This document shows, in pieces, positions 52,911 to 55,804 of a DNA stretch of 64,000 nt. Below the pieces are notes generated by a model. That model did not search any database, had not been told where the DNA came from, and saw only the letters and a program-made list of their open reading frames with translations. Position 1 is the first letter of the stretch, and each line of letters begins with the position of its first letter. The stretch lies in assembly GCF_029222705.1 (NCBI RefSeq), contig NZ_JARGZF010000002.1, positions 496,001-560,000 of the forward strand, in the 5' to 3' direction. This DNA comes from Knoellia sp. p5-6-4 (GTDB lineage Bacteria > Actinomycetota > Actinomycetes > Actinomycetales > Dermatophilaceae). The position numbers were made by a program, and so were the translations under genes.

Positions 52911-52988
52911 GGTCATGAGTGCCAGCGCGCAGCCCCGGCTTGCTGGCCAGCAACCCTCCTCCGCGGTGGGGTGCTCCGGGTGACGACC
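52911..52988 (+). ncRNA. SAM-IV riboswitch (SAM-I/IV clan)
   Basis: GGTCATGAGTGCCAGCGCGC at the 5' end, then AGCCCCGGCTTGCTGGC, CAACCCTCC and GGTGGGGTGCTCCGGGTGA, ending in GACC, follow the actinobacterial SAM-IV consensus. P1 is GGTC (52911-52914) with GACC (52985-52988); P2 is GCCAGC (52921-52926) with GCTGGC (52942-52947); the CCCCGG loop can pair with the later CCGGG as the pseudoknot. TACCGT at 52896-52901 is a possible -10. It should lower expression of the gene at 53066 when S-adenosylmethionine is high. Confidence 0.88.
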
Positions 52989-53065
52989 GGGTCGCCTGCG
53001 CCCGCAGGTGGCAAGCGCGGACCCGCGGCCACTCCCCCGGGTCCACCGGACCCCAGGAGCACGCC

Positions 53066-54466
53066 GTGTCCATCGCCAGCACCAGCCGCAACCGAGCCCC
53101 CGAGACCCACACCGGGCAGGCCCACCACCGTCGCCACCTGCGGCCCGTGCCCGGCGAGCCCGCCGGCGCGGGCCCGGTGCCCCCGGTGGTATCGGCCGAC
53201 CTCGGCGTGCCGACCCTGCACCGCACCGTGGTCGACTACGCCAACCTCGACCACGCCGCCTCCACACCGGCTCTCGTCTCGGTCAAGCAGGCCGTCGACA
53301 CCGCCCTGCGCACCTACTCGTCGGTGCACCGGGGCAACGGGTATGCCTCGCGCGTGACGAGCCGGTGGTACGAGGCGGCCCGGGAGGAGGTCCGGCGCTT
53401 CGTCGGTGCGCGTGAGGGCGACGAGGTCGTCTTCACCCGCAACACCACCGACTCGTTCAACCTGCTCGCCCGCGCCCTCCCCCGGGGCACGGAGGTCTTC
53501 GTCTTCGAGGCCGAGCACCACGCCACGCTGCTGCCGTGGGCGGGCCGCACCACCCGCCTGCCGGTCCCCGGCAGCCTCGACGATGCGCGCGTGCTCCTGT
53601 CGAGCGCGCTCGAGCGCTCCACCGCCCGCCACCGCCTTGTGGTGATGTGCGGGGCCTCCAACGTCACCGGCGAGGTGTGGCCCGTGCGCGAGCTCGCCGA
53701 GGTCGCGCGCCAGCACTTCGCCCGGGTGGCCCTCGATGCCGCGCAGCTCGCCCCGCACCGCACCATCGACCTCGAGGCGCTCGGGGTGGACTACGTCGCC
53801 TTCTCCGGCCACAAGCTCTACGCGCCGTTCGGCGCCGGCGTGCTCGCGGGGCCGGGCGACTGGCTCGACCAAGCCGCCCCGTACCTCGCCGGCGGCGGCG
53901 CGACCGCCTCGGTCACCGAACGGGGCACGAGGTGGCACCGGGGGGCGGCGCGCCACGAGGCCGGCTCCCCCAACGTGATCGGCGCGGTCGCGCTGGCGGC
54001 GGCGTGCTCGACGCTGGCCGAGCACCGCGAGGCCGTCGAGGCGCACGAGATCGCCCTGGGCCGGCGGCTGACCGAGGGCCTGGCCGCCGTCGACGGCGTG
54101 CAGACCTACTCGATCTTCGGCCCCGACCACGAGCGGGTGCCCGTGGTGGCGTTCACGGTCGACGGCCTGGACTCCTCGCTCGTGTCGGCAGCCCTCTCCG
54201 CCGAGCACGGGATCGGCGTGCGGGACGGCAAGTTCTGCGCCCACCTCCTGGTGGACGCCCTGCTCGACGACCCGTATGCCGCCGGCCCGGCGACCGCGGT
54301 CCGCGCCAGCGTCGGGCTGGCCAACACCGCCGAGCACGTGGACCGGCTGCTGTCGGCCGTGGCGTCGCTGGCCGCCCGGGGGCCCGCCTTCGAGTACGAG
54401 CGCGGCCCTGAGGGCTGGACGCCGGTGTCCGACCCGCGCGACCTCAGCCTCCCCCGCCCCTGGTGA
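53066..54466 (+). CDS. Class V aminotransferase / cysteine desulfurase-like PLP enzyme
   Basis: 466 residues from GTG 53066 with AGGAG six bases upstream. After a nonconserved N-terminal stretch of about 50 residues come NLDHAASTPA, FTRNTTDSFNLLA, VALDAAQLAPHR (PLP-binding Asp and Gln) and FSGHKLYAPFGAGVLAG with the PLP Lys. KFCAHLLVDAL holds a Cys near the place of the desulfurase loop, but catalytic use is unproven. Control by the SAM-IV riboswitch ties it to sulfur or methionine metabolism, for example sulfur release from an amino acid. Confidence 0.87.
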   Translation: MSIASTSRNRAPETHTGQAHHRRHLRPVPGEPAGAGPVPPVVSADLGVPTLHRTVVDYANLDHAASTPALVSVKQAVDTALRTYSSVHRGNGYASRVTSRWYEAAREEVRRFVGAREGDEVVFTRNTTDSFNLLARALPRGTEVFVFEAEHHATLLPWAGRTTRLPVPGSLDDARVLLSSALERSTARHRLVVMCGASNVTGEVWPVRELAEVARQHFARVALDAAQLAPHRTIDLEALGVDYVAFSGHKLYAPFGAGVLAGPGDWLDQAAPYLAGGGATASVTERGTRWHRGAARHEAGSPNVIGAVALAAACSTLAEHREAVEAHEIALGRRLTEGLAAVDGVQTYSIFGPDHERVPVVAFTVDGLDSSLVSAALSAEHGIGVRDGKFCAHLLVDALLDDPYAAGPATAVRASVGLANTAEHVDRLLSAVASLAARGPAFEYERGPEGWTPVSDPRDLSLPRPW

Positions 54467-54494
54467 GGCGGGAGCAGGCCGAAGGGTCAGCCGG

Positions 54495-54672
54495 GTCAGG
54501 ACCAGCGCGGTTGCTGGTCGCGGGGCGTGCCTGGCGGCGCCTCACCGTGGTGCGAGGTCCCACCTCTCGCGCCAGGACAGCACTCTTCACGCGAGAGCTG
54601 GGACCTCACGCACGTGGGGCGCTTGGGCCAGGCGGCGGAAGAGGTCAGGACCAGCGCGGGTGCTGGTCGCGG
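54495..54672. repeat. Palindrome flanked by 29-bp direct repeats
   Basis: Two direct copies, 54495-54523 and 54644-54672, differ at one of 29 bases; each is a small hairpin (GACCAGC, six bases, GCTGGTC). Between them, 54550-54571 and 54590-54613 form a 22-24 base imperfect inverted repeat with an 18-base loop. Copy 2 is the 3' end of the 35-residue gene at 54645; copy 1 would encode a similar end (QQPRWS) on the minus strand. It could be terminators plus a partial gene duplication, or the remnant of a small element. Confidence 0.75.
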
Positions 54673-54752
54673 TCGAACCTGGTGTCGACCCCGTAGATCG
54701 GGGCGAGGATCGCGATGGTGACGAGAATGGCGAGAACGATGAAGAAACCCAT
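54645..54752 (-). CDS. Very small membrane protein (35 residues, unrecognised)
   Basis: ATG 54752 to TGA at 54645-54647. The product begins MGFFIVLAILVTIAILAPIY, a single hydrophobic helix, and ends in a polar tail, RFDRDQHPRWS, so it should be a one-helix membrane protein with the tail on the other face. No Shine-Dalgarno sequence is obvious. It is transcribed divergently from the GlxA-type regulator, whose putative operator lies within 50-80 bases of its start. Lower GC and balanced codons fit a real gene. Function unknown. Confidence 0.6.
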   Translation of the reverse strand: MGFFIVLAILVTIAILAPIYGVDTRFDRDQHPRWS

Positions 54753-54800
54753 GGCAGAAATCTTGCGCCCAACCTGATTACCGCCACGAGTGGCAGAAAT

Positions 54801-54830
54801 GCCATCTCCCATAGATTTTCCGCCATCTCC
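54801..54830 (+). promoter_or_regulatory. Two-turn direct repeat, candidate operator of the GlxA-type regulator
   Basis: GCCATCTCC occurs at 54801-54809 and again at 54822-54830, 21 bases apart, which is two helical turns and the usual layout of AraC-family sites. TGGCAGAAAT is also repeated (54752-54761 in ATGGCAGAAAT and 54791-54800), and GGCAGAAATGCC is a palindrome. All lie between the divergent small gene and the regulator gene. Confidence 0.5.
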
Positions 54831-54847: not shown

Positions 54848-55804
54848 ATGCTGCACAACGTGGCCGTGCCCCTGGTCAACACAGTCTCCCCGTTCGAGTT
54901 CTCCGTCGCCTGCGAGGTCTTCGGCCTCGACCGCACCGACCAGGGCGTGCCGCCCTTCGACTTCGCGGTCTGCAGCGAGCAGCCGGGGCAGCCGGTCCCG
55001 ACCGAGATGGGCTTCACCCTCACGGCCCAGCACGGCTTCGACAGGCTGGCCGAGGCCGACCTCATCGTGGTGCCGGCGTCGCGGCCGCGACAGGCCCCCG
55101 TCCCCGCGCCGCTCGTCGAGCAGCTGCGGGCTGCCGACGAGCGGGGCGCCTGGGTCATGTCGCTGTGCAGCGGCGCCTTCACCCTGGCCAAGGCCGGGCT
55201 GCTCGACGGCAGGCGCGCCACGACGCACTGGATGAACACCAACGAGCTGGCCGAGGAGTTCCCCGCCGTCGACGTGGTGCTGGACGTGCTCTTCGTCGAG
55301 GACGGCAACATCATCACCTCGGCCGGCACCGCCGCCGGCATCGACGCGACCCTCCACCTCGTGCGCAAGGAGCTGGGCGCGACCGTGGCCTCCGCGATCG
55401 CGCGCCGCATGGTCGTTCCCCCCCAGCGCGACGGCGGTCAGCGCCAGTACGTCGAGGCGCCACTTCCCGCGATCGAGGCCGACTCCCTCCAGCCGGTGCT
55501 CGAGTGGGCCACCGAGAACCTCGCCGAGGACCTCTCGGTCGAGACGCTGGCGCGGCGGGCCATGATGTCGGAGCGGACCTTCGCCCGCCGGTTCCGGGCC
55601 GAGACGGGCGCGACACCGCACGCCTGGGTGACCGCCCAGCGGGTACTGCTCGCCCGGCGCCTCCTCGAGGACACCGACGCCTCCGTGGAGCAGGTCGCCG
55701 GCCGCACCGGACTGGGCACGGCCGCCATCCTGCGCCACCACTTCACCCGTCAGGTCGGCACCACGCCCCAGGCCTACCGCCGCACGTTCCGTTGTACGGG
55801 CTGA
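54848..55804 (+). CDS. GlxA/FtrA-type transcriptional regulator (DJ-1/PfpI domain plus AraC HTH)
   Basis: 318 residues. Residues 1-170 form a DJ-1/PfpI class I amidotransferase-like domain with the nucleophile-elbow Cys in MSLCSGAFTLAKAG. The C-terminal 100 residues hold two AraC helix-turn-helices (ETLARRAMMSERTFARRFR and VEQVAGRTGLGTAAILRHHF). Such proteins sense small metabolites and usually activate neighbouring genes. The repeats at 54801-54830 suggest autoregulation and control of the small membrane protein. Confidence 0.9.
   Translation: MLHNVAVPLVNTVSPFEFSVACEVFGLDRTDQGVPPFDFAVCSEQPGQPVPTEMGFTLTAQHGFDRLAEADLIVVPASRPRQAPVPAPLVEQLRAADERGAWVMSLCSGAFTLAKAGLLDGRRATTHWMNTNELAEEFPAVDVVLDVLFVEDGNIITSAGTAAGIDATLHLVRKELGATVASAIARRMVVPPQRDGGQRQYVEAPLPAIEADSLQPVLEWATENLAEDLSVETLARRAMMSERTFARRFRAETGATPHAWVTAQRVLLARRLLEDTDASVEQVAGRTGLGTAAILRHHFTRQVGTTPQAYRRTFRCTG

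Follow-up and report, generated by a model that had tools for sequence, protein, structure and literature searches.

A frame of 35 codons in the window (the whole stretch of 64,000 nucleotides of Knoellia sp. p5-6-4 DNA analysed here) is very probably a gene. The explanation that accounts best for its surroundings, and one we consider quite likely, is that it truly encodes a single-pass membrane protein and serves as the dedicated local target of a divergently encoded FtrA-type regulator. The small gene belongs to a family, the region that it shares with the regulator carries an operator of fixed geometry sited almost exclusively at this locus, and the arrangement recurs across actinomycetes. 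The features of the locus, in window positions, are as follows.

54645..54752, minus strand: small gene, 35 codons plus stop, with the stop at 54645
54848..55804, plus strand: FtrA/GlxA-type regulator, 318 aa
54791..54825, minus strand: operator O1, TGGCGGAAAATCTATGGGAGATGGCATTTCTGCCA, half-sites 29 nt start-to-start
54752..54786, minus strand: operator O2, TGGCGGTAATCAGGTTGGGCGCAAGATTTCTGCCA, 39 bp from O1, last half-site overlapping the ATG of the small gene
54759..54764, minus strand: AAGATT, a candidate −10 element of the form xAnnnT, with its end 7 nt from the ATG
54801..54830, no strand: two copies of GCCATCTCC, not conserved and judged fortuitous
54554..54607, no strand: hairpin between the small gene and a convergent cysteine desulfurase gene

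The small gene and its divergent regulator

The sequence-only reading proposed that a 35-residue protein with one helix and a charged tail faces a DJ-1/AraC gene across a shared region of 95 bp, and all of this is confirmed in the sequence, with the stop of the small frame at 54645 and the regulator gene at 54848–55804 (plus strand). The product of the frame (54752–54645, minus strand), MGFFIVLAILVTIAILAPIYGVDTRFDRDQHPRWS, has one hydrophobic helix at about residues 2–20 (mean hydropathy 3.0 over 17 residues) followed by the charged tail GVDTRFDRDQHPRWS, and is a predicted single-pass membrane protein, presumably inserted in the membrane. A longer version of 55 aa, from an ATG at 54812, is also open but was rejected: its extra 20 codons are operator DNA, and relatives start at the position of 54752. 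Against Pfam and NCBIfam the small protein gave weak matches to OppC_N, DUF5652, mini_HHHH and Class_IIIsignal, all under the curated cut-off.

In G001, which alone represents the genus besides the window's genome, the small protein is 86% identical, in frame and within an unchanged gene order. Seven codons differ among residues 1–29, five of the seven synonymously, and three further codon differences fall in residues 30–32. A genome of another genus of the same family (G547) has a homologue at the same position, beside a regulator that is 73% identical. The window's protein and that of G547 belong to what is called here the GADSR type, a helix of about 20 residues followed by G[AV]D[ST], with GVDTRFDRD in the window and GADTH in G547. 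Conservation of the frame in relatives that keep the flanking genes, on which the sequence-only reading had staked its proposal, is found in both genomes; the frame is unbroken and the synteny kept, in support of a genuine gene. Because homologues exist, the frame is more than chance. It is very short, and a high-GC genome is rich in spurious frames, but an open frame that arose by chance and has no function is scarcely credible, being already contradicted by a frame, motif, start position and pairing that are conserved in many genomes.

Downstream, the small gene converges with a cysteine desulfurase-like gene (about 52919–54466). The hairpin between them has 18-nt arms that are 94% complementary (−56.7 kcal/mol, z −6.1), and is a possible shared bidirectional terminator for the convergent pair; a U-run was looked for at the hairpin and none was found, and sigma-70 and terminator scans gave no match. 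The small gene's 3′ terminus, stop included, lies in a 30-bp stretch that occurs twice (54643–54672 and 54494–54523, 97% identical, 149 bp apart), so that the copy at 54494–54523 carries a second end reading RDQQPRWS and stop, without the remainder of the gene.

The regulator has a DJ-1/PfpI domain at residues 5–173 (PF01965, 60.6 bits) and an AraC-type HTH at about 222–313 (PF12833, 76.6 bits), both over the gathering threshold. Its best match, over the full length, is to NCBIfam FtrA at 367.8 bits. This is under the equivalog cut-off of 425, a point against an FtrA-controlled gene, and the protein is best described as FtrA-like, not as FtrA by the NCBIfam rule. C107, at the DJ-1 nucleophile position, is present in 98 of 98 homologues and aligns with a cysteine of isonitrile hydratase InhA; its invariance makes a reactive small molecule or oxidant plausible as the signal. 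The nearest solved DNA-binding domain is that of AdpA (3w6v, 116 bits). AdpA of Streptomyces is a DJ-1/AraC regulator with the site TGGCSNGWWY, beginning TGGC (PMC4021200), and contacts DNA by two arginines, R262 and R266 (PMC4847859). These are matched, through alignment to 3w6v and PMC4847859, by R243 and R247 of the regulator, which are invariant in 98 homologues. Since the domain is AdpA-like, the two arginines are invariant and AdpA sites start with TGGC, binding of the regulator to O1 and O2 can be soundly inferred, and this speaks for the small gene as its target.

Operator and promoter

The operator is a 35-bp inverted repeat, TGGCRG-N23-CTGCCA, in two tandem copies 39 bp apart. The repetition of TGGCAGAAAT, at 54752 and 54791, had been pointed out from the letters alone; it is real and beyond chance, and the two copies, 39 apart, are half-sites of the two operators. 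A near-repeat, TTxCCGCCA, with copies likewise 39 apart, also represents half-sites of O1 and O2. Two other proposed elements exist but do not form the operator. The exact repeat of GCCATCTCC is there, at 54801 and 54822 (21 apart), but is not conserved: G001 reads GCCATGACC and GCCAACGCT, and G547 differs at both. The palindrome GGCAGAAATGCC is also present and is kept in G001, but G547 has TGGCAGAAATGTCATG instead, and because of this loss the symmetry of the operator does not rest on it.

By pattern searches of genomes, on which the regulon counts rest, the window's genome has five matches to TGGCRG-N23-YTGCCA, with A/T-rich flanks only at two, both of them here. In this genome the operator thus hardly occurs outside the shared intergenic region, as would be expected of a dedicated local target, and its five places, two of them A/T-flanked, are not an AdpA-like global regulon. 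The regulator resembles AdpA in domain architecture, in its closest DNA-binding domain, in TGGC-headed half-sites and in the two invariant arginines. It differs in that AdpA controls hundreds of genes whereas the operator here is local, with essentially one site per genome; moreover, A and not G/C follows TGGC in most half-sites, and the inverted repeat has a fixed spacing of 29 nt.

The distance of the −10-like element from the ATG suggests a leaderless small-gene mRNA, the transcript probably starting at the ATG itself; mycobacteria have many leaderless mRNAs that begin at an ATG or GTG (PMC4633059). If the small gene is the target of the regulator, both tandem repeats would be bound by FtrA, which presumably dimerises through the DJ-1 domain. 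O1, some 10–40 nt before the FtrA start and upstream of the small-gene promoter, would probably serve autoregulation as well as control of the small gene, while O2 would cover the putative core promoter, from about −34 to +1 of a gene with a probably leaderless mRNA. A change in the ligand or redox signal of FtrA would then lead to the tiny protein being made and inserted in the membrane (this direction of control is presumed), where our best guess is that it would act by binding another, larger membrane protein.

Recurrence in the family and the class

The 30 best FtrA loci of the family, drawn from 86 genomes with FtrA at E ≤ 1e-50, all carry O1 upstream of the regulator, its TGGCRG and CTGCCA-like half-sites spaced by exactly 29 nt (30/30). 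Little or no variation is seen at bases that the search pattern did not specify (CTxGTGGC directly after O1, GxCA inside O1). The second copy, O2, lies 39 bp further on at many, not all, of the family loci, and its right half-site is often degenerate. Counting 72–73 nt from where O1 begins, 29 of the 30 loci have a start codon, which overlaps O2 at its end and begins a small protein with a helix at its N-terminus; T at −7 from this start, the last base of the xAnnnT element, is found in 27 of 29 aligned loci. All 28 scored family small ORFs have a KD17 of at least 1.75, as compared with 8% of control small ORFs reaching at least 1.6. In 29 relatives the more exact operator pattern generally has one site, beside the regulator; in G495 there is a second site, beside a second FtrA-like gene. 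The constant presence of O1, the position of the small ORF, its hydropathy, the invariant flanking bases and the mostly single operator all favour a membrane-protein gene under local control.

The peptides are unalignable between families and the DNA around the start is the most conserved element, as would fit a small frame that is a by-product, with an RNA or a leaderless cis-acting leader mattering and the peptide not. This is very unlikely, given a hydrophobic helix in 28/28 scored loci against 8% of controls, the strong GAD[ST]RD motif of the GADSR type, and the lack of a following operon gene at most loci.

A point against the membrane-protein gene as a dedicated FtrA target is that the window's own protein type is found in only 4 of 186 family genomes at the search threshold. 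Most of the remaining genomes have another small-protein type or no FtrA, and in most other genera of the family the small protein is of a 'LERxxRR...' type with an acidic tail. Homology between this and the GADSR type was rejected (profile comparison probability 2.4%), and the two are treated as positional analogues only. In one exceptional genome, G548, the FtrA locus (L195) has O1 and lacks a small gene. A small gene of the GADSR type elsewhere (L095) has no regulator and keeps O1, O2 and the 72-nt spacing intact; it lies between RNase J and cysteine desulfurase genes, as does the module in the window. Retention of O1 at both of the separated loci supports the link between regulator and small gene, and suggests that the small gene may be regulated in trans after loss of its local regulator.

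When the operator alone was searched for, as TGGCAG-NWW-N20-CTGCCACT, 128 of the 394 class genomes had it, and the reversed control gave 6 matches. Among 70 inspected sites (30 automatically given, 40 chosen by us across families), an FtrA homologue adjoins the operator at 68, and a one-helix tiny ORF starts 71–73 nt from it at 57. The core idea of the sequence-only reading, that a GlxA-type regulator may control a tiny membrane protein, is strongly supported by this co-occurrence of regulator, operator and ORF, with an almost constant spacing in many families. On the other side stand 11 of the 68 operator/FtrA loci, which have no qualifying tiny ORF (L220, with a 149-aa frame containing a helix; L241, L249, L250, L261–L263, L270–L272; and L273, at a contig end). 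The tiny proteins also form lineage-specific types, often unalignable between lineages, which leaves a shared function unproven. Among them are RDGYRRIPTD (f19), PPxSHxDWS..LPSxPY (f27, f38), HDLDAIRTRFE (f22) and RERRIDRQIR (f37). The f22 type we take, by gene order, to be that of Mycobacterium, and the f37 type looks like Streptomyces from its gene neighbours (in L246, nrdA-nrdB beside the regulator). A juxtamembrane RxDG motif shared across all types was considered and is not claimed (45/86, slightly above the shuffled-tail mean of 32.6).

Function of the small protein and related systems

The near-obligate pairing with FtrA of fast-diverging small sequences is as seen in co-evolving pairs, and 66 of 86 proteins of the FtrA-linked set carry a net positive charge behind the helix, consistent with a cytoplasmic tail. 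Both observations would suit a protein that tethers or inhibits its own regulator FtrA at the membrane in a negative feedback, as MgrB does for PhoQ. We consider such feedback unlikely: the GADSR-type protein persists alongside LysR and MocR regulators, which are unrelated, and regulator and small gene are apart in G548, although action in trans remains compatible with that. Because GADSR-type tails are mostly net negative, the topology of the window protein may be either way.

Profile searches show GADSR-type homologues to be widespread in the actinomycete class, with the helix followed by LAPxxGAD[ST]RDGxDW; presence counts from these searches are lower bounds, part of the candidates having been scored. 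A strong helix is present at all 66 GADSR-type loci fetched by one degenerate pattern, mainly from Streptosporangiaceae, Thermomonosporaceae and Frankiales. By our own reading, with one exemplar per type checked, the nearest head-to-head gene at these loci is LysR in 26, the F420 gene fbiC in 20, FtrA in 6, MocR in 6, and other or unassigned in 8. Since regulators of three unrelated families are paired with one small-protein family, the small protein probably has a partner other than the regulator.

At many Actinomadura loci fbiC lies just past LysR, and the fbiC-paired loci may be ones that lost LysR. LysR-type promoters share a motif of their own, GGACCTGAATGTTGGAC..GAGTCAAACT, often with a purine-rich ribosome-binding site. 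Streptosporangiaceae-type small genes divergent from fbiC (L135, L141, L149, L151, L155, L156) have the promoter motif GATAGACGTAAATGCTTGC, which resembles the Actinomadura LysR-type motif; there is no adjacent LysR gene at these fbiC loci. In L074, L079, L082 and L089 the FtrA operator and the GADSR-type gene are separated by an extra basic ORF of 58–71 aa, which has a strong ribosome-binding site and ends at or just before the small-gene start.

YczR-YczE is a pair of a MocR regulator and a membrane protein. In L126, L071 and L075 the GADSR-type protein is the in-frame N-terminal part of YczE (the fusion spans 4007–4780 in L126), divergent from a MocR-type gene which in L075 is YczR; the window locus, in contrast, has neither YczE nor MocR. 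In L079 and L082 an EamA-type transporter gene follows the GADSR-type gene on the same strand. These fusions next to YczR and this transporter gene, like the three unrelated regulator families, would be accounted for if the tiny protein assisted or regulated a transporter or some other integral membrane protein as one of its subunits, in the way that AcrZ serves AcrB, with FtrA, LysR or MocR only setting the timing. Most loci have no nearby transporter, however, the downstream genes are highly variable, and the YczE fusions are all from related genomes, so that we put this forward tentatively, as a possible specification of the effector part of a locally controlled membrane-protein gene.

To our knowledge AcrZ, MgrB and YohP have neither a fixed pairing with FtrA nor a leaderless-type start. 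Likened by features alone, they match the tiny protein in size, single helix and regulated production (PMC11539335, PMC2789325, PMC12719787). NrdS of Streptomyces coelicolor (SCO5224) is given, in the passages on the nrdABS operon in PMC4991794 and PMC3293853, as its AraC-like regulator. The FtrA homologue with operator in L246 (2400–5001) adjoins nrdA-nrdB, as nrdS does in those passages, and NrdS is probably, or at least may be, the Streptomyces representative of the module's regulator. The small gene in L246 would sit antisense between nrdB and nrdS. The cases differ in that a small protein beside nrdS is not mentioned in the same passages (PMC4991794, PMC3293853), and in that the window gene has no nrd neighbours.

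The module is not described in the open papers searched on FtrA, on small membrane proteins and on actinobacteria, and no description of the targets of FtrA/NrdS-type regulators was found in the literature searched. The comparisons made here point to an overlooked conserved two-gene module, the output of which would be a very small membrane protein. A broader reading, to which we give even chances, is that besides itself the FtrA/NrdS-type family has a one-helix tiny protein as its sole conserved output across actinobacteria, with a sequence that drifts until it is no longer recognisable while size, helix, start and operator stay fixed. If true, such regulated small membrane effectors would form a class not described so far, one that sequence searches miss and that the geometry of the operator reveals. 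Short length and fast divergence make small membrane proteins hard to detect; the conserved operator places such genes exactly, and in widely studied actinobacteria a single pattern predicts dozens of genes that have gone unrecognised. It also names the regulator and the start codon to perturb, and gives a testable target for FtrA/NrdS-type regulators.
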